The position numbers and the translations under genes are program-made. The notes under the pieces are model-generated. The model was not told the origin of the DNA, searched no databases, and saw nothing but the letters and a program-made list of their open reading frames with translations. Shown piece by piece: positions 15,613-56,741 of a stretch of DNA of 64,000 bases. This DNA comes from Neoarius graeffei (Eukaryota; Chordata; Actinopteri; Siluriformes; Ariidae), in the NCBI RefSeq assembly GCF_027579695.1, contig NC_083576.1, positions 41,775,260-41,839,259 of the forward strand. Direction: 5' to 3'. How positions within the stretch are numbered: position 1 is the first letter of the stretch; each line of letters begins with the position of its first letter.

Positions 15613-17515
15613 TCCAAAACCGTGCGAGTTTTGGGTGCTAAGCAGGGCTGAAGCGAGCTGAGTCGTGCTGCTCTGAGGTAGTCGAAATGCGAGCCGTGTT
15701 GGGCTGAAGTGAGCTGAAGTGAGCTGAAGCAAGCTGAAAAAGGGTAGTGGAAAAGGGCCATTAGAGGCAGCAGCGCAACAGGAATTTGAGCAGGATTTCA
15801 GTGACATTGATGTGCCAACTGATGACTCGAAAGCACACACCAAAGACTATTTTGAAGGAGTTGCTAAATACACTTCAGCCGTGCACATACAGAGTGCTCC
15901 TGCTAGCATTCCAGACATGCAGACTTCTGAATATACACACACTGTTGTTTCTTACCACACTGTAAATAAATTACTCCCTCAGCAGAACTGTGCACTGCAC
16001 TACACACAGCACGCCCAAACCACAACTCTGCCTATAGCCCTAGTGCAAGAACAGTGTGAGCCACAATTCCAGCAAACTGACTGCGTGCCTACAATGACAC
16101 CCCACCCTGAGATGGTGCATCAGCCTTTAGGAAATGGCTATGGTAACACTGCATATAACAAGCCATTAGACAATCCCCACTCACTACCTAGCGCTGCTTA
16201 CCAGCAGAGAAGCCCTGTGCATGCTAAGTTTAATGAAAACAGAGGAATGTCAGACTTTGTCAGATTCATGGCCCGGCTTGAGCTTATCTCCACTGGGCTT
16301 ATGCAGTTCAATGACCGCCCTGAATGCTTTAGAGCTTGGAAAGCATCCTTCATGAACTCTATCAGAGACCTTAACCTACCAGCTAGTGAGCAGCTTGATC
16401 TTCTTGTGAAATGGTTAGACAAGGACTCAGCCGAACATGCTAGGCGCATGAGGACTGTTCATGTGAATCATCCAGAATATGGACTCAGGGCTGTGTGGGA
16501 TCGGCTCTATGAGTACTATGGAGCACCAGAGGTCATCGAAAGCTCCTTGTTCAAGAGGCTTGAGAGCTTCCCCAAGGTACAGAACAAAGATGGGCGCAAA
16601 CTAAGAGAACTGGGGGACTTACTGATGGAAGTACAGGCTGCCAAAGCTGATGGGGACCTGTTTGGCCTTGGCTATCTAGACACACCGCACGGGGTTAACC
16701 CTATCGTGCAGAAACTGCTATTCTACCTGCAGGAAAAGTGGTTCACGCAAGGGTTCAACTATAAGGAACAACATAGGACTCCCTACCCCCCATTTAGCTT
16801 CTTTGTGAACTTTGTGTGCCAACAGGCGAGAATGCACAATGGCCCCGGCTTTACGCTGGCTGAACCCAACAATGAACATCATGGTCATATCAAGCCGGCG
16901 CTAAAGTTAGAGAGTCAGAGGGCAGTAGCTGTTTTCAAGACTGGGGTGTCTCCTAATGACCCACACACACCCGCTGATTCCCCATCTGCAAGTATGTCCA
17001 CTAGCAGAGAGGACCCAGCAAAACATTGTCTCCTGCACAACAAACCCCACCCCCTACACAAATGCCGTGGGTTTAGAGATAAGTCTATAGAGGAAAGAAA
17101 GGCACTCTTAAAGAAACATAGAGTGTGCTGCAAAGTCATACACTTGGCAAAGAACTGTAATGACGAGGTAAGCTGCACAGAGTGTGGAAGCAACATGCAT
17201 GTTGCAGCGCTACACCCCGGCTCAGCACTGAAAGCCAACAGCTCGGCAGACCCTGCACCGGAGGGTTGCGGGGAGGCTGCTATCTCAGCTTCATGCACCA
17301 AGGTGTGTGGAAAAGACATCTCAGGACGCTCCTATTCGAAAATATGCCTTGTAAAGGTGTACCCAGACACTCACTCTGATGCGGCAGTCTGTATGTATGC
17401 CATATTAGATGACCAAAGTAACCGATCGCTTGCGCGATCTGAGTTCAGTGTTTTCAACATCTTAAGACGTCCCTCACCATACTCCCTGAAAACGTGCAGG
17501 AACGATAGAGACTGA

Positions 17516-25695: not shown

Positions 25696-25908
25696 TTAAT
25701 GTAGGTCTGACAGAGTTTGTTTCTTCACTTTTAGCCGACATTGTTCTGGGGAGCGCGTGAACCCCTTCTCCTTCATTTTCTCACTGAATACAGCAAACAC
25801 GTCGGCATTTTTGTGTGTTCTCTCCAAAAGCTCAGATATGTGGACATCTGCCCGTATATCCACAAGGGTACGCATTTCTTCCTTGGCCCACGTTTGCCCC
25901 CTACTCAT
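25696..25908 (-). pseudogene. Harbinger Myb/SANT-like protein, N-terminal part
   Basis: A 70-residue frame: WAKEEMRTLVDIRAD, then a helical middle, then FTRSPEQCRLKVKKQ. The spacing of Trp and the final QCRxKxKxL-like motif match Myb/SANT-like (trihelix) domains. Autonomous Harbinger elements carry such a protein next to the transposase to aid DNA binding. The frame stops shortly after the third helix. Confidence 0.65.
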
Positions 25909-25968
25909 TTTTTGTACTCTGTAGTCTAGCCTACCACTGGTCTGAATGACTGAACGACTGTTGTAAGG

Positions 25969-26562
25969 TAGCCTGGCTAACGCGACTTCAAAGCTCTCTG
26001 AGCTATTGGTCTGGCCAAGATATTAAGCCCAACCGTTTCCCAGAGCCCGTGGTTGACCCGCCTCCCTGAAATGCCTCAGTTTGCTACTGGTCGAAGCCAG
26101 AAAAGGCTGTGATGAAGCTTAAACCAATCACATCACTCTTTCCTCTGACATATGCGACGCGACGGGGCTAACTGGTAGATTAAACTCTTACCGAAGCCGG
26201 TCGGGAGCAAGGCGAAAACGTCCTTCCTTTCAATAAATACCTCCAGGGCTGCTCTTTGCTCCGTTTTCAATGAGAACTTCCTGTTGAATGCTTTCAATAC
26301 AGCATCTATGCATAATAGATGCGGAAGCGTGAATGAAGCGCTTCCGGCATAGATTCTGTAAACAATCTATGGCTTCCGGTCGCAGTCCTACTACGTCAGT
26401 GCCTTGAACACGCCTCTACCCAGGGCCGTTGGAGATACTCAAAGTTGATTGGTTCCCGATTTTTCGGGAGCTTGGAAGAGCTGTAGATAGCTTGCCTGGC
26501 CAGACTAAGCTCGCAACAGGCCCTCGTGTTGCGTCACGCTTAGGATGGGCGGGCCCAGGCTA
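25969..26562. mobile_element. unassigned MITE with 9-bp target duplication
   Basis: Starts TAGCCTGGCTAACGCGAC and ends GGGCCCAGGCTA, short imperfect inverted ends. GTTGTAAGG is duplicated at 25,960-25,968 and 26,563-26,571. No ORF. A 9-bp duplication fits MULE-like or Merlin-type elements; the assignment is open. Confidence 0.6.
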
Positions 26563-27129
26563 GTTGTAAGGTTCCCTTGACAACCGAAACAGTGTTTGCA
26601 CTTTGCGGTGGAGTGTCAAGACTCTGTTTCCCATAATGCTCGACAAACGATGGAAGCTCCCGAGGTACAAAAAAGCAAAACTGTTGGATTAGGTCTGGTC
26701 TGCTTTCACACCTCCAAAAGGTCTGCACCAGGGTTCCTTTGGTCCGGACCGAGTCCGACCTTGCAGCTCGGTCTGGGTCCGCTTGTTTGGTCCGGACCAG
26801 AGTTCGGTGGTTTGTATTCAGACCAACCCAAAAGGTCCGGACCAAGGGAAATTTGGTTCGTTTGGTCGTTTGGTCCGGACCAAACAACGTAGGTGTGAAT
26901 ACGCCCTTAGAATCACAAACAAGTTCCTATTAAAGTGGCCAGTGAGTGTAGTTTTATTTTGTGGCATATAGCCTACTGCCAGTTCCACCTTGATTGGCCT
27001 GTTTGAAAGGCATTCCAGTATTATTCAGACATGCAATTGAGCCTTGTTCTTGCATTGACATTTTTCTGTAAAGTGCTCTTTGGGCTGTTTTTCCAAGGCC
27101 TGATGTGTACTCCCTTGGATACTCGCTGG

Positions 27130-27660
27130 TATGCTGTATGTTTGTGCTCAATCAGGGAGGTCTGAGGCACATCAGGGATCTGGATCAGAGTTCAAACCTC
27201 CATGCAGGAAAACTGATACTGGAAATGTCTGGCTTCCCCACAGTGTCAACACACCTGCCCCAGAAGGTATCCCTCGTAGAGAGAGAGAGAGAGAGAGAGC
27301 AAGCATGGGGAGACATTAGAAAGGCAGGGAAAGAAAAGTGATGTGGAAACCTGGTCCAGGGTGTCAGTTTTAGGACCTCAGAACTTTGGTTCTGTGGAAC
27401 TGAAAGTGTGGGATAAAAGGGGAGAGAAGTGAGAGAGCTAAAAACTAAAAACACCAGGCACATGGACTGCTGCCAAGTGATCCCCTGCCAGCTACACAGC
27501 TTAATCTAGGGATGTGGACCAGTGGCAGAAGGTCCCATTCTGCCATTCTTGTTTGGAGGCAAACAACGAATTGCTCCAGTACCACAAGCTCAATGATCTG
27601 TTCTGCATCCTGCTCCTCCACCATCAACCACTAGCAACAGGACTCCTTTAGCTGCTGCAC
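27130..27660 (-). pseudogene. Gmr1-like gag fragment with SCAN-related region
   Basis: On the minus strand the stretch near 27,545-27,610 reads AEQIIELVVLEQFVVCL then TRMAEWD, a motif typical of the capsid C-terminal region of Gmr1-like Gag and related to the SCAN domain. Downstream sequence matches the gag-protease spacer style seen at 46.2-46.6 kb. A (GA)n run is at 27,280-27,299. Confidence 0.6.
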
Positions 27661-38344: not shown

Positions 38345-39968
38345 CAGTGGTGCTTGAAAGTTTGTGAACCCTTTAGAATTTTCTATATTTCTGCATAAAT
38401 ATGACATCATCAGAAAACATCATCAGATTTTCACACAAGTCCTAAAAGTAGATAAAGAGAACCCAGTTAAACAAATGAGACAAAAATATTATACTTGGTA
38501 ATTTATTTATTGAGGAAAACGATCCAATATTACATATCTGTGAGTGGCAAAAGTATGTGAACCTCTAGGATTAGCAGTTAATTTGAAGGTGAAATTAGAG
38601 GCAGGTGTTTTCAATCAATGGGATGACAATCAGGTGTAGTGGGCACCTGTTTTATTTAAAATAAAACAGGGATCTATCAATGTCTAAGCTTCACAACACG
38701 TTTGTGGAAGTGTATTGGCACGAACAAAGGAAATTTCTGAGGACCTCAGAAAAAGAGTTATTGATGCTCATCAGGCTGGAAAAGGTTACAAAACCATCTC
38801 TAAAGAGTTTGGACTCCACCAATCCACAGTCAGACAGATTGTGTACAAATGAAGGAAATTCAAGACCATTGTTACCCTCCCCAGGAGTGGTCGACCAACA
38901 AAGATCACTCCAAGAGCAAGGCGTGTAATAGTCGGCAAGGTCACAAAGGACCCCAGGGTAACTTCTAAGCAACTGAAGGCCTCTCTCACATTGGCTAATG
39001 TTAATGTTCATGAGTCCACCATCAGGAGAACATTGAACAACAATGGTGTGCATGGCAGGGTTGCAAGGAGAAAGCCACTGCTCTCCAAAAAGAACATTAC
39101 TGCTTGTCTGCTGTTTGCTAATGATCACATGGACAAGCCAGAAGGCTATTGGAAAAATGTTTTGTGGATGGATGAGACCAAAATAGAACTTTTTGGTTTG
39201 AATGAGAAGTGTTATGTTTGGAGAAAGCAAAATGCTGCATTCCAGCATTTGTACACATTCCAGCAGTTATCCCATCTGTGAAACATGGTGGTGGTAGTAT
39301 CATGGTTTGGGCCTGTTTTGCTGCATCTGGGCCAGGATGGCTTGCCATCATTGATGGAACAATTAATTCTGAATTATACCAGCAAATTCTAAAGGAAAAT
39401 GTCAGGACATCTGTCCATGAACTGAATCTCAAGAGAAGGTGTGTCATGCAGCAAGACAACAACCCTAAGCACATGAGTTGTTCTACCAAAGAATGGTCAA
39501 AGAAGAATAAAGTTAATGTTTTGGAATGGCCAACTCAAAGTCCTGACCTTAATCCAGTGGAAATGTTGTGGAAGGACCTGAAGCGAGCAGTTCATGTGAG
39601 GAAACCCACCAACATCCCAGAGTTGAAGATGTTCTGTATGGAGGAATGGGCTAAAATTCCTCCAAGCCAGTGTGCAGGACTGATCAACAGTTACTGGAAA
39701 CATTTAGTTGCAGTTATTGCTGCACAAGGGGATCACACCAGATACTGAAAGCAAAGGTTCACATACTTTTGCCACTCACAGATATGTAATATTGGATCAT
39801 TTTCCCCAATAAATAAATGACCAAGTATAATATTTTTGTCTCATTTGTTTAACTGGGTTCTTTTTATCTACTTTTAGGACTTGTGTGAAAATCTGATGAT
39901 GTTTTAGGTCATATTTATGCAGAAATATAGAAAATTCTAAAGGGTTCACAAACTTTCAAGCACCACTG
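38345..39968 (+). mobile_element. Tc1-like transposon, family 3
   Basis: Ends CAGTGGTGCTTGAAAGTTTG with the inverse at 39,949-39,968; TA at 38,343-38,344 and 39,969-39,970. Inner repeats TACATATCTGTGAGTGGCAA occur near both ends. Confidence 0.95.
38680..39748 (+). pseudogene. Tc1 transposase, family 3, frameshifted
   Basis: The frame shifts near 38,730, shows an in-frame TGA near 38,849 (IVYK followed by stop) and shifts again near 39,245. Readable motifs: RVIDAHQAGKGYKTISKEF (helix-turn-helix), [11 protein letters not shown] (first Asp), QQDNNPKH (second Asp), SPDLNPVEMLW (Glu, 34-residue spacing), ending GDHTRY. Confidence 0.88.
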
Positions 39969-39970
39969 TA

Positions 39971-41185
39971 TAGCATTCTTAAATTTAACTTTAATATGTT
40001 TCTCTTTTGCACAAATCTAAGACAAGTTAAGAGTATTTTAAAATTTGGTTACCTCCAAATGTGAAAATTTAGAAAATGGCATTTAAAGATTCTGTTCATT
40101 TGAGATTGTATAAAAAGCCACTGTTATTAATTGATTTAATATATAATAAATAAATAAATAAATAAATAAATATAATATAACAGTGAAAACTACAGATTAA
40201 ATATAATTTGTAAACTAAATAGAAAATGCATTTTAATAGTTTCAAGCATGAAACAGTCTTGTTTATTGGCAGATACTAATAGTCTATTTTCTGTTTGCTA
40301 ATTTAAGCATTTATTTCTACAAAAAGAGTAAAATTATCTGCCAATAGAATAAAAAAATGTAAACCTTGAAATTACAATGAATGAATGAATGAATGAATGA
40401 AAGTCTAGAAATGAGTTTAATTTTAGATTTTTTTTTTGTAATCTTACAATAGGACATACTAGTTAAATATAATCTCATTCAAAATACTTTCACTCAATTT
40501 CTTTTTTTTTTTTTTTGCAGTGTTGTTTTGAGTACCACAAAACAGTATTTTGCCAAATAAGGCCCTTCTTTTTGAAAACTTTAAATCTTTATTTTAAGAG
40601 TAAATGTAAGATCATATATCATTTTCATTCATTCATTCATTCATTCATTCATTCATCTTCAGTAACTCCTTTATTCGGTTTGGGGTGGCAGTGGATCTGG
40701 AGCCCTGATGGAACACCTAATGTGAGGTGTAAATACATCCTGGATGGGAATCCTTGACCTTGACCATGTGAGGCATCAATGCTGCACCCCATACAACCCT
40801 ATATAATTTTCAATTATCTAAAATTCAATGGACCTTTGAAAGAAGCTTCTCAGCTATTTACAAATTTTGATTCTGATTAGCTTATTCAGACTGGGGTTCA
40901 GGGCAAAAACCTCCCTGTATGTAATCATTCACCTACCAAAGCACAAATTTACTGTAAATGTAATACATGAAATGTCAAATAGAGCCCCATTGGAGATATG
41001 GAAATAATAGCATCATTATGATGCAGCTAAAATAGCAGCTGGGTGATTCAAGGCAGTAGAAGATAATAATAAGATAAGTGGTTAGCATGAGTCTGAAAAG
41101 CATTGTAAAAGTTTTCCTTACCACTTGGGTAAAACTGCCTTTTTGTGGCTATAGTATGAGAAATAACTATAGTGCAATATACAGT
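39971..41185. other. intergenic, microsatellites and a SINE 3' fragment
   Basis: (AAAT)n at 40,145-40,170, (GAAT)n at 40,377-40,400, (CATT)n at 40,626-40,656. 40,655-40,760 resembles the 3' half of a decayed DANA-like SINE (GTGGATCTGGAGCCCTGATG, ACATCCTGGATGGGA). No gene. Confidence 0.6.
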
Positions 41186-41189
41186 CAAA

Positions 41190-41233
41190 GGAATTTCCCT
41201 CTCCCATGGAATTTATATTTGGGAGTTTTAAAA
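41190..41233 (+). promoter_or_regulatory. candidate promoter of the cytokine-like gene
   Basis: GGAATTTCCC at 41,190-41,199 fits the NF-kappaB consensus. TTTTAAAA at 41,226-41,233 is a TATA-like box 60 bases before the start codon, implying a very short 5' UTR. Both are usual in inducible cytokine genes; function is inferred. Confidence 0.45.
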
Positions 41234-41293
41234 GCTGCATCACTCAACTGATAAAACACGGGCTGAATAGAACTCAAAGACATAGAAGGGACA

Positions 41294-41998
41294 ATGAATG
41301 CTGTTCCAGGCTTCATCTTTTTGCTGTCATTGATTGCAAGTTGTCACTTTTTTCCATTGACAGAGTTTGACATCGACTTGCAAGAAATTGAAAGACTAAA
41401 CCCGGTAAGTTATACACTTGCTTTATTGAATGTATAGAAAACTATACATTAAATAAAAAACTTTACTAGTTTAAGAAGCTTAATAATTTATGCATTTGTT
41501 TTTAATAGAACTGTACAGATGGCCACCAAAAGCCAATGGTAAGTACTCTCAGGATATCTAAATCAGTTAAATTTAATTGTTTTAATAAAGTGAGCAAAAG
41601 CAATCCAATATTTAAGCAATGTTAAAATATTTTTATCTGATTTGAAATGGTAAGACGATGCACTGTGAATGTGTTTCAAACAACTCTTATCTGATCATAG
41701 ATTGTATCACACTCAAGCATTGCAGTGACTTCCTTCCAATAATATTCTTTGTAGTGTTATGCAGTGCATGTATATAATTCCCATTGGAGAAATACACTTT
41801 TATTTGTAGGATGCAAGGATTTGGGTTAGTTTTATTTTAGCTTCTACACGGACACTGCCCTCGAATAATCTGTGAAGCAGGTTCACTGTCAAAATGTAAA
41901 GTCTGTGTGTTCAAACAACCTGGATTAAGTTACTCGTTTCTATGATTATAGGAACCTAACTGCCAGTGGCTAAACATTTCCCGCACAATGGTAAGTGC

Positions 41999-42084
<86 letters not shown>

Positions 42085-42758
42085 CTTGATGAATGACTAT
42101 AAGGAAAATGTAGTGCTACAGACTGCAACAATTTTTGGATACAGTGCAGCTAAACTAGGCATACCAGTGTGACTTGCAAATATGCCCCCCATTTAAAAAA
42201 ATATTCATCATGTATCATGTGAAACACTAGAAGGGAGCGATTCAGGTTGTATGGGGCAAAATTCACTCTTGTTGGGTGAAATTTGTCTGGTTGGTGAATA
42301 ACTAGAAGTAGTGTTGCACTGCAACTCAGGGAAACCTGGTTGTTTTTACTGAGTTGTCAGGCCACTGCCGGATATGACGTCACACCAACCAGAGCAAAAG
42401 GAGCAAATTCAGTAAGGCAAGTGAAATTATGATGGCAAATTCTCAGCTTCGTGCAAATGAGAACCACAAGAGTTCTCGCACAACCATAAGTTCTCGCATG
42501 TGATATGTTTGGTGCATGATGTTCTGTAGAGAGACAGGAGTCATAAAAAAAAGTCTGACCAAGATGGCAGAGGCTAAAGGTTAGATGTAGCATGAAAATG
42601 TTATGTTGCATTGCATGTCGATTTAACTGGTGCTCCTAAAATTTTCAGTAAGGAGCAACAGTACTACTAGTGGAAAAGGTTAGACTTGAGCCATGACATG
42701 TGCATTGGTTATTGGTTATCTATATTTCTATTCTAATAGTATAGAATAAGAATAAATA

Positions 42759-42823
<65 letters not shown>

Positions 42824-43561
42824 TTATAATCTAAAATTATTTATCTATTTATTTCCTTTTAAGAGCTGCACTGATCTTATTGAACAAGGACTATGCAAAC
42901 TAAACATGGTTTGCAACATTTCTGACAGCAAGACACATAAAACATGTCGAATCCTTGAAAGACTTCAGGTAAGGATAGATTTAATTTGAAGAATTTTTTT
43001 TATATTTCGTAATAGTTGGAATTATTATGAGGAGAAACTAAAAGACTCTTGTTTTAGAAGTCTCTGGTTTTATTTTGAATGATTACTTAGAATATAATTA
43101 TGGACATTTTTATTTTCAATAAGTAACCCACTTATCACAGAGCATGCCAAATTGTTCAGTTGTTAATTCAAATATTTAATTAAAATAATTAAAATAAAAT
43201 CAAATTCCAATGTTTAATTTACAGAATTAAAATGCTAATTTGTGAAACAGTATAAACAGTATCTTTTATTTGGCTTTTTGCTATGCAAAGCACCTCCAAT
43301 TGCCTCATACAAGGGGTTACAATGTGCTATAATATAAATAAGCTTGCTTTGCCTAACATACACACATTTACCTACTAAAACCGTGCATCTGGGTGTCTTG
43401 ACTAAATTTCTGTTGTTTTTTTTTCCCCCCTCTAGAATCTTGTGACCACTGACCAAACACTGTGTAAACTCCCAATGCCTCAGTGCCAGTTTTTGAATTA
43501 CATCAGAACGGTGTACCAAAGAGCAAACAGTATTCCAGTATCACAATCAGGAAAAAGTTAG
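41294..43561 (+). CDS. short-chain four-helix cytokine-like secreted protein (5 exons)
   Basis: Exons: 41,294-41,404; 41,509-41,538; 41,952-41,990; 42,864-42,968; 43,436-43,561 (TAG). All four introns are phase 0 with GTAAGT/GTAAGG donors and AG acceptors. The 136-residue product has a hydrophobic signal peptide (FIFLLSLIASC, residues 7-17), then eight Cys (39, 51, 62, 71, 77, 88, 105, 112) and three N-glycosylation sequons (38, 55, 78). Predicted helices: DIDLQEIERL, TCRILERLQNL and FLNYIRTVYQRAN. It should act outside the cell through a class I cytokine receptor. Small size, all-phase-0 introns and helix placement fit the IL-4/13, IL-9, IL-3/IL-5 group; two tiny internal exons favour an IL-9- or IL-3-like layout, but this rests on memory. 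No frame defects. The family is confident only at superfamily level. Confidence 0.72.
42003..42083. repeat. (TATC)n microsatellite beside a splice donor
   Basis: About 20 tetranucleotide units begin roughly 12 bases after the exon-3 donor of the cytokine-like gene. Confidence 0.98.
42762..42823. repeat. (TA)n(CA)n microsatellite near exon 4
   Basis: Ends about 40 bases before the exon-4 acceptor of the cytokine-like gene, in the branch-point zone. Confidence 0.97.
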
Positions 43562-43720
43562 GATAATCAGAAATTAGGAAAAATATAATTATATACTACT
43601 AAAACTTTAATTATTTCTTTATTTAATAATGTAGATATAGACAAGTATTTTGGTTTCCAGTCAATGTTTCACAGTGGTACAATTAATTAAGGAGATAATT
43701 TCCTATTTCTAGACCAAGTG

Positions 43721-44030
43721 TGGCAACACAGTGGTTAGCATCCTCACCTCACAGCAAGCAGGTTCTGGGTTCAAACCTTGCAGCCGAATGGGGCCTTTCT
43801 GTGTGGAGTTTGCATGTTCTCCCACTGCCTGCATGGATTTCCTCCCACAGTTCAAAGACATATGGACTAAGTCAACTGGTTACTCTAAATTTCCCATAGG
43901 TGTGAAAGTGATTATGAATGGTTGTTCATCTCTGTTCGCCCTGCAAGAATTTGGTGACCTGCCTAGGGTCTACCTTTGGTACTCTCGCCTGAAGTCAGCT
44001 GAGATTGGCTTCAGTTTCCAGCTTGTGTTT
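43721..44030 (+). mobile_element. DANA-type SINE, old copy
   Basis: Diverged but alignable from head (GTGGCAACACAGTGGTTAGC) through GTGTGGAGTTTGCATGTTCT to the 3' part. It lies between the stop codon of the cytokine-like gene and the candidate polyadenylation signal, so it may be part of its 3' UTR. Confidence 0.8.
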
Positions 44031-44631
44031 CATTTTCAGTCCATATGTACAGTATTATGCTAACTCAGAAGGCAAACATTTTTATACACATTTTGCTCTG
44101 TGTTCAGGAGGCTGTACATTTCATTATTTGTTCTTGTTTGAAATTATAGCAGACATAATATTTAAATAGGTACACGTTTCTGTACACATCTAGTCATATT
44201 TATCATTTCTAAATCTTATTAATAACATGATTTCTGCTTTATTTCTATTATGTATTTTTTTTCCTCAAAACTCTATCAAACCAGCCATGTTTCTGTTTTG
44301 ACGGTTAAAAATAATCAGTCATAATCAGCCTCTGGTTTGTAATAATATCCATCTGTACAGGCTAATTGTTCCTTCAAAAATCACACTGTGATGTTATGCT
44401 TTAATCTATCTTTCATTTTCTAAAATTGTCAAGAAGGGGTAGAAAACAAGCATTTACATTCTAGGTTTTCAGTCATGTTTAATTCAGGAAATCAAAATTA
44501 CCATTCAAAATTCTGATTCTGTTGTATGAGAATTTTCTCTCTGGACCAGATAAATTGGGTCTTTGTCATCATGAAAAATTGTCAGAAAAAAACTGACATT
44601 GTGGTCAGTTTGTTAATCTCTTTTTATCTAC

Positions 44632-44637
44632 AATAAA
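44632..44637 (+). promoter_or_regulatory. candidate polyadenylation signal
   Basis: AATAAA about 1.07 kb after the stop codon. Several ATTTA pentamers (for example 43,621-43,625 and near 44,158 and 44,203) lie between, as in unstable cytokine mRNAs. Which signal is used is unknown. Confidence 0.35.
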
Positions 44638-55795: not shown

Positions 55796-55814
55796 AGGAC
55801 CCACCCACTACTAT

Positions 55815-56741
55815 ATCTGTGAAGATACTCAGTCGTCCAGGTACATAGTAATCTGTGGTTGGTAGAAGAGAGCAACTGGACTTGCTTGAAAAGTCTTGAA
55901 GACGTTTCGCCTCTCGTCCGAAAGGCATCATCAGTTCTGTCTGTCTAATAGGGAGTATCAAGTATTTATCCTCTCATGGATCATAATAGAATCCAAATCA
56001 GAATGCTGATGGCTGCATTGAAGGTGGCTGATAGATGTCATAGACACCCACCTCTGTTCAGTGATGGTCGTTCCAGGCTGACAAAATTGAACGATCCTCT
56101 CTGGCTAAGATGTCTGCCAGTTTTCTGGAAGTCCTCTCATACTCCCGCACTAGTCGAAGGGAACTCATCCCAAAGTGCGTAGAAACATATCTGTGAAGAT
56201 ACTCAGTCGTCCAGGTACATAGTAATCTGTGGTTGGTAGAAGAGAGCAACTGGACTTGCTTGAAAAGTCTTGAAGACGTTTCGCCTCTCGTCCGAAAGGC
56301 ATCATCAGTTCTGTCTGTCTAATAGGGAGTATCAAGTATTTATCCTCTCATGGATCATAATAGAATCCAAATCAGAATGCTGATGGCTGCATTGAAGGTG
56401 GCTGATAGATGTCATAGACACCCACCTCTGTTCAGTGATGGTCGTTCCAGGCTGACAAAATTGAACGATCCTCTCTGGCTAAGATGTCTGCCAGTTTTCT
56501 GGAAGTCCTCTCATACTCCCGCACTAGTCGAAGGGAACTCATCCCAAAGTGTGTAGAAACATATCTGTGAAGATACTCAGTCGTCCAGGTACATAGTAAT
56601 CTGTGGTTGGTAGAAGAGAGCAACTGGACTTGCTTGCTCCCTATTAGACAGACAGAACTGATGATGCCTTTCGGACGAGAGGCGAAACGTCTTCAAGACT
56701 TTTCAAGCAAGTCCAGTTGCTCTCTTCTACCAACCACAGAT
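55815..56741 (-). mobile_element. Penelope-like element, terminal repeats only
   Basis: Two direct units of 374 bp (55,815-56,188; 56,189-56,562), a partial third (56,563-56,637) and a short inverted piece (56,638-56,741) form the insertion. The tandem plus inverted-tail structure is that of Penelope-like pLTRs. Each unit encodes on the minus strand THFGMSSLRLVREYERTSRK, similar to the N-terminus of Penelope-like proteins. A 13-bp duplication CACCCACTACTAT lies at 55,802-55,814 and 56,742-56,754. The RT-endonuclease part is absent. Confidence 0.7.
55904..55934 (-). ncRNA. candidate hammerhead ribozyme core
   Basis: Minus strand reads CTGATGA, an imperfect stem-loop (GCCTTTCGGACGAGAGGC), then GAAAC, followed by a GTCTTCAAGAC hairpin. 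These are the conserved boxes of a hammerhead. The second unit carries it at 56,278-56,308 (-) and the inverted tail at 56,658-56,688 (+). Stem III is not perfect, so activity is unproven. Confidence 0.45.

Follow-up and report, generated by a model that had tools for sequence, protein, structure and literature searches.

Which kind of protein is encoded by the five short exons at positions 41294-43561 (plus strand) of this 64-kb stretch of catfish DNA, referred to below as the window? A sequence-only reading had read them as an unnamed gene whose secreted, cysteine-rich product is probably a short-chain cytokine, and had offered IL-9-like, IL-3/IL-5-like and IL-4/13-like as possible names. 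The gene model supports the general proposal. Here, we examine the gene and its relatives in other catfish and compare exon layout, sequence, cysteines and helix-D motif with those of mammalian interleukin-9 (IL-9) and other short-chain cytokines.

Gene model, surroundings and catfish relatives

The proposed model, with exons of 111, 30, 39, 105 and 126 bp (the last including the stop codon), all in phase 0 and all bounded by GT-AG, was exact to the base, and the 136-residue product with three sequons (N38, N55 and N78) was reproduced from the exons. The eight cysteines that had been counted are those of the mature protein; the full precursor has nine, since C17 lies in the presumed signal peptide. 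The donor sites are near-perfect (three GTAAGT and one GTAAGG), and the acceptor tracts are strong for exons 4 and 5 and moderate for exons 2 and 3. The features of the locus are as follows, with exon identities given relative to the protein P0001 of Pangasianodon hypophthalmus (see below):

38718-39625: relic of a Tc1/Sleeping Beauty-type transposase, its HTH and DDE parts split between two frames
41227-41232, plus strand: TATA-like TTTAAA, candidate promoter, 67 bp before the ATG (pattern scan, consensus match only)
41294-41404, plus strand: exon 1, signal peptide and presumed helix A, residues 1-37 (29 of 37 identical)
41509-41538, plus strand: exon 2 (30 bp), A-B loop, residues 38-47 (2 of 10 identical)
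41952-41990, plus strand: exon 3 (39 bp), residues 48-60, place of the CxCLxIP of IL-9, here C-x-W-L-x-I-S (8 of 13 identical)
42000-42084, no strand: (TATC)21 microsatellite in intron 3 (repeat scan)
42762-42811, no strand: (TA)25 microsatellite in intron 3 (repeat scan)
42864-42968, plus strand: exon 4, presumed helices B and C, residues 61-95, beginning S-C-T (24 of 35 identical)
43436-43561, plus strand: exon 5, C-D loop and presumed helix D with FLNYIRTVYQ (Q123), TAG stop (20 of 41 identical)
43621-43625, plus strand: ATTTA in the presumed 3' UTR, 60 bp past the stop (pattern scan)
43730-44017: dispersed repeat, starting 169 bp past the stop

For a test of chance, we counted five-exon chains that are in phase 0 throughout, start with a hydrophobic stretch and have seven or more cysteines after residue 20. 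Positions 41000-43999 held seven such chains, namely the proposed model and six variants with the same exon 1, and none was found in 500 dinucleotide shuffles of these positions or in the 79 other 3-kb tiles of the window; these counts were obtained with acceptor and hydrophobicity filters that were relaxed afterwards, when the correct answer was already known. Under the stricter first filter the real gene was also missed (0 chains; 0/200 shuffles). The hydrophobic N-terminal start in exon 1 is kept in four catfish proteins, as judged by inspection and a crude filter. That the five-exon gene is real and not a product of chance is near certain. Most likely, the locus is a working protein-coding catfish gene for a secreted short-chain class I cytokine, a function predicted from sequence.

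The gene had been placed in a repeat desert, which is wrong: the Tc1/Sleeping Beauty relic ends about 1.7 kb upstream of the ATG, the dispersed repeat follows closely on the stop and both microsatellites lie within intron 3. The dispersed repeat matches eight other places in the window (68-72% identity), with full-length coverage in six; by eye it is SINE-like or similar. Pattern scans gave further ATTTA motifs at 44160, 44198 and 44452 and the nearest AATAAA at 44632, beyond the dispersed repeat, which leaves the 3' end undefined. Six-frame Pfam scans covered 23-28, 36-46 and 56.6-61.6 kb of the 64-kb window; no neighbour gene useful for synteny, such as CXCL14, SLC25A48, LECT2, TGFBI or SMAD5 of the tetrapod IL9 neighbourhood, was seen in these parts, and the matches were to Tc1/Sleeping Beauty, SCAN, Myb/SANT-like, sub-threshold DEAD and reverse transcriptase. 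For the rest of the window (about 44 of 64 kb), the list of open reading frames looks transposon-like by eye. Among other elements of the window, a probably transposon-derived region on the minus strand (25720-27660) combines SCAN (about 27535-27660) and Myb/SANT-like (about 25720-25893) matches with the sub-threshold DEAD match between them, a 567-aa open reading frame at 15812-17515 resembles by eye a retrotransposon gag region, and 55813-56636 is a tandem repeat with 2.2 copies of a 374-bp unit (99% matches).

Relatives of the window protein were found in three other catfish, where they are annotated as uncharacterized or hypothetical only. By BLASTP, with alignments spanning 93-97% of the query, identity was 62% for P0001 (P. 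hypophthalmus LOC117597634), 51% for P0002 (Tachysurus vachellii Q7C36_013669) and 52% for P0003 (Hemibagrus wyckioides KOW79_007263). The protein search gave two relatives at E up to 1 among six candidates and a three-sequence profile gave four among 992 candidates, including one 76-aa fragment; all named relatives are catfish. By this similarity, the three proteins, which are mutually non-independent, belong to the same gene family as the window protein and are probably its orthologues. Conservation with P0001 is highest in exons 1 and 4 and lowest in exon 2, so that the 30-bp exon is the least supported part of the model. In contrast to the window protein, the relatives have 8 or 10 mature cysteines, a longer A-B loop and a retained CxC. 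Two of their cysteines, one from HCPxNC and one from CQC (the second in each motif), are missing from the window protein, and two others, C71 and C112, were gained, as if one disulphide had been swapped for another. A tblastn search of the window revealed no second gene copy, its weak matches being chance or repeats, and in a scan of viral contigs 26 stretches fitted the pattern, none of which encodes a relative.

Exon layout and sequence compared with interleukin-9

The exon borders of mammalian IL9 were deduced from annotated proteins with exon skips and intron read-throughs. Seven of 103 mammalian proteins jump from the end of exon 1 (helix A) to D-N/D-C-T/S with 23 or 24 residues missing; single-exon skips are seen in P0089 and P0099 (12 residues missing) and in P0088 (11 residues missing); P0095 and P0103 enter intron 4 after K-C-G/P, and P0107 enters intron 1 after codon 38. 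The seven proteins with the long jump (P0092, P0094, P0096, P0098, P0100, P0101 and P0105) lack both tiny exons and the CxC region and are probably annotation errors. P0107 (68 aa, from an 11336-bp contig of a metagenome collection) is exon 1 of mouse IL-9 read into its intron, and its contig is therefore probably host DNA.

The deduced mammalian layout is 114/36/33/132/120 bp, all in phase 0, which adds up to the 435-bp human coding sequence; five exons and four introns are given for human and mouse IL9 in excerpts of PMC6522352. The two tiny internal exons had been said to recall mammalian IL9, and the deduced layout agrees: both genes have five phase-0 exons, and exons 2 and 3 together measure 69 bp in each (30+39 in the window, 36+33 in mammalian IL9). 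The intron offsets coincide as well, the first cysteine of CxC lying three residues into exon 3 (intron 2) and the phenylalanine of helix D 18 residues into exon 5 (intron 4) in human and window alike. The exon 3/4 junction is one codon off relative to C-T, exon 4 starting with S-C-T in the window versus D-N-C-T in mammalian IL-9. A MAFFT alignment puts intron 4 about 11 residues apart but depends on helix C, which is poorly conserved; with helix D as the anchor this shift disappears, at the cost of a window exon 4 that is nine codons shorter than the mammalian one.

At the sequence level, a profile of 33 mammalian IL-9 sequences was scored against the catfish proteins, with Cys-preserving shuffles as controls. 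P0001 reached 11.8 bits (2/4999 shuffles as good), P0003 12.0 bits (2/4998) and P0002 10.1 bits (6/5000), whereas the window protein gave no signal (-1.8 bits; 3456/4990 shuffles as good). Of the profile search against cytokine families that had been suggested earlier, the outcome is thus split, as the three relatives answer the IL-9 profile and the window protein does not, and its link to IL-9 goes via its relatives. Mean Smith-Waterman scores against 83 IL-9s gave the same picture, with 0/300, 1/300 and 1/300 shuffles as good for P0001, P0002 and P0003, respectively, and 257/300 for the window protein. Taken alone, human IL-9 was unremarkable (131/4999, 604/4991 and 1035/4998 shuffles as good for P0001, P0002 and P0003), mouse IL-9 scored higher (0/4998, 101/4969 and 0/4993, and 92/4978 for the window protein) and rabbit IL-9, like mouse IL-9, stood out for P0001 and P0003.

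Human IL-2, 3, 4, 5, 7, 13, 15, 21, GM-CSF and TSLP served as single-sequence controls against the four catfish proteins, and for these ten no score above shuffles repeated across the four. The best non-IL-9 scores were those of IL-3 with P0003 (80/4236 shuffles) and IL-15 with P0002 (96/4896), neither of which was repeated in the other proteins; the real score of the window protein against GM-CSF is missing from the hmmsearch output. The comparison is uneven, as only IL-9 was given a profile and the others were single human sequences. P0003 is 17-21% identical to mammalian IL-9, and a profile-profile alignment with hhalign covered only 25 columns at a probability of 4.7%. The resemblance includes the motif ECQCLSIPHTMNCT of P0001 versus SCLCLGIPSDNCT of human IL-9, i.e. 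the CxCLxIP..NCT region, and a shared core, CQCLSIPHTMNCT...GL in P0001 versus CLCLGIPSDNCT...RL in human IL-9, where most mammals have GL. The scores indicate that the similarity of the relatives to mammalian IL-9 is specific though weak.

Database searches added little. In the Pfam copy used, the window protein, P0003 and human IL-9 matched no family, and P0001 and P0002 gave only Mucin2_WxxW and DUF4763, both below threshold; the catfish blank is uninformative, as human IL-9 itself matches no family there. PF27789, an entry precomputed on mammalian IL-9s, is absent from the catfish proteins. A PDB sequence search with the window protein alone had no match and a search with the catfish profile had three unrelated weak ones (best E 0.16). 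Of 138 candidates in the IL-9 homologue search, 103 came through at E up to 10, mostly mammals by name and a few without a species name; no fish is among the matches listed, and no bird, reptile or amphibian IL-9 was obtained, so that no intermediate could be aligned.

Cysteines, helix D and predicted fold

The motif CxC[L]xIP precedes helix B in 79 of 80 full-length mammalian IL-9s. P0001 has it, P0002 and P0003 read CQCFIFP and the window protein reads CQWLNIS, having lost the second cysteine of CxC and the proline of IP. The ten-cysteine set of mammalian IL-9, which is not general to IL-9, as the chicken precursor has nine, is not reproduced, the eight mature cysteines of the window protein being partly elsewhere, with four to five placed differently from those of mammals. 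Unlike those of mammals, the catfish proteins have cysteines in the presumed B-C loop and in helix C; they have no counterparts of C21 and C68 of human IL-9.

In helix D, FLx7Q occurs in all 80 full-length mammalian IL-9s and, among 11 human cytokines scanned, in the last 40% of IL-2, IL-15, IL-21 and IL-9, and is absent from IL-3, IL-4, IL-5, IL-7, IL-13, GM-CSF and TSLP. The window protein carries it as FLNYIRTVYQ and so shares it with IL-2, IL-15 and IL-21 as well as with IL-9; its relatives carry the relaxed forms ILx7Q, IMx7Q and IFx7Q. The glutamine aligns with Q126 of IL-2, and in all four catfish proteins a serine follows four residues on (Q123 and S127 in the window protein). Q126 and S130 of IL-2 are gamma-chain contacts according to excerpts of PMC7885892 (the glutamine also in PMC3894449).

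A structural model built from catfish sequences only had a mean pLDDT of 45, too poor for judging the fold, and a second one, whose alignment included mammalian IL-9, reached 69.8. Both weak models have four predicted helices in the expected order.

Identity of the gene and its meaning

We consider it probable that the gene is a fast-evolving orthologue of tetrapod interleukin-9, a reading that draws on the gene structure, the relatives in three catfish, the IL9-like intron layout, the weak IL-9 similarity of the relatives and the helix-D motif. Of the names offered earlier, IL-9-like is the one favoured by the deduced exon layout and by the intron offsets from CxC and helix D, and the similar protein length fits it. 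We call the gene a candidate and not a member of the IL-9 family because the window protein fails the profile comparison, its cysteines depart from the mammalian set and the scanned parts of the window gave no neighbour gene for synteny. Excerpts of PMC9252340 describe chicken IL-9 as a protein of 138 aa with nine cysteines in the precursor and three sites in the mature protein that shares only 26-28% with mammals; the window protein, with 136 aa, nine cysteines and three sequons, resembles it in these published figures. In 2007, no IL-9R-alpha was found in zebrafish (PMC1963337, in the part consulted), which speaks against an IL-9 orthologue in fish.

The three relatives and one fragment that make up all homologues reached, the lack of IL-9 signal in the window protein itself and a cysteine pattern of its own would also fit a separate gamma-c-type short-chain paralogue of ray-finned or otophysan fishes, derived from the IL-2/4/7/9/13/15/21 stock and not orthologous to IL-9. 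The two tiny exons and FLx7Q would then come from a common ancestor or have arisen in parallel. We regard such a paralogue as unlikely, given that the intron offsets and the 69-bp exon pair are those of mammalian IL9 and that the IL-9 profile is the sole one answered by three of the four proteins (the others having been tested as single sequences). That the protein is a short-chain cytokine of some kind seems very probable to us. A non-cytokine identity, as some other secreted protein rich in cysteines, would agree with the lack of a confident fold from catfish sequences alone and of a Pfam family, which human IL-9 likewise lacks in the copy used; it is quite improbable in view of the phase-0 exon scheme, expected of a short-chain class I cytokine, the helix-D motif and the four helices predicted in the expected order, if in weak models.

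Cysteines in the A-B loop, in the B-C loop and at the start of helix B characterise the disulphide pattern of IL-4 and IL-13. The catfish cysteines match this pattern, the introns are in phase 0 and a 105-bp exon encodes helices B and C as in IL-13, all of which a diverged IL-4/13 gene would explain. Such an origin is nevertheless hardly credible: according to excerpts of PMC4905449, throughout vertebrates IL-4, IL-13 and the IL-4/13 genes of fish are built of four coding exons with three phase-0 introns, against five exons here, human IL-4 and IL-13 lack FLx7Q with its helix-D glutamine, and neither scored above shuffles (best 310/4707, window protein with IL-4). The same source gives teleost IL-4/13A and IL-4/13B as small secreted proteins with phase-0 introns and ATTTA in the 3' UTR, features that the window gene shares. 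The earlier names IL-4/13-like and IL-3/IL-5-like are both unsupported, the latter for want of a signal against human IL-3, IL-5, GM-CSF or gar IL-5famA that repeats in all four catfish proteins. Membership in the IL-3/IL-5/GM-CSF family, as the catfish orthologue of the doubtful 'IL-5fam?' of cyprinids with action via the common beta chain, is a faint prospect. Teleosts are expected to have such a gene, which had not turned up beyond cyprinids (PMC4690019, in excerpt), and IL-3 gave P0003 its best non-IL-9 score; against this, FLx7Q is absent from human IL-3, IL-5 and GM-CSF, and the missing signal weighs less in a family whose members barely match each other.

If the gene is an IL-9 orthologue, activated lymphocytes would transcribe it, and the secreted product would carry glycans on up to three sequons, be stabilised by about four disulphides and fold as an up-up-down-down four-helix bundle. 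It may signal via the common gamma chain (CD132), with helix-D residue Q123 as the contact, together with a private alpha chain, and receptor engagement would activate JAK1/JAK3 and STAT5.

Papers of 2015 and 2018 report that no IL-9 had been found in either fish or sharks, as far as their consulted parts go. In the literature searched, which lies mostly outside subscription journals, no report of a fish IL-9 was found by title or abstract; 'interleukin-9' or 'interleukin 9' occurs in the text of the fish papers PMC12662676 and PMC11249740, and Il9 is named only in a reference in the portion of PMC9650189 consulted. As far as this literature shows, we lean towards seeing here the first interleukin-9 recognised in any fish. 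If this is true, the last common ancestor of bony vertebrates already had IL-9, and at least four catfish have kept it in a fast-evolving, unannotated form. Teleosts may then possess a TH9-like or IL-9-driven mucosal arm; the alpha chain of its gamma-chain receptor would still await discovery or have been replaced by a relative such as IL-2R-beta. The two tiny exons, CxC and FLx7Q would serve as bait in other fishes, and IL-9 function would become directly testable in an egg-laying aquatic vertebrate and farmed species.
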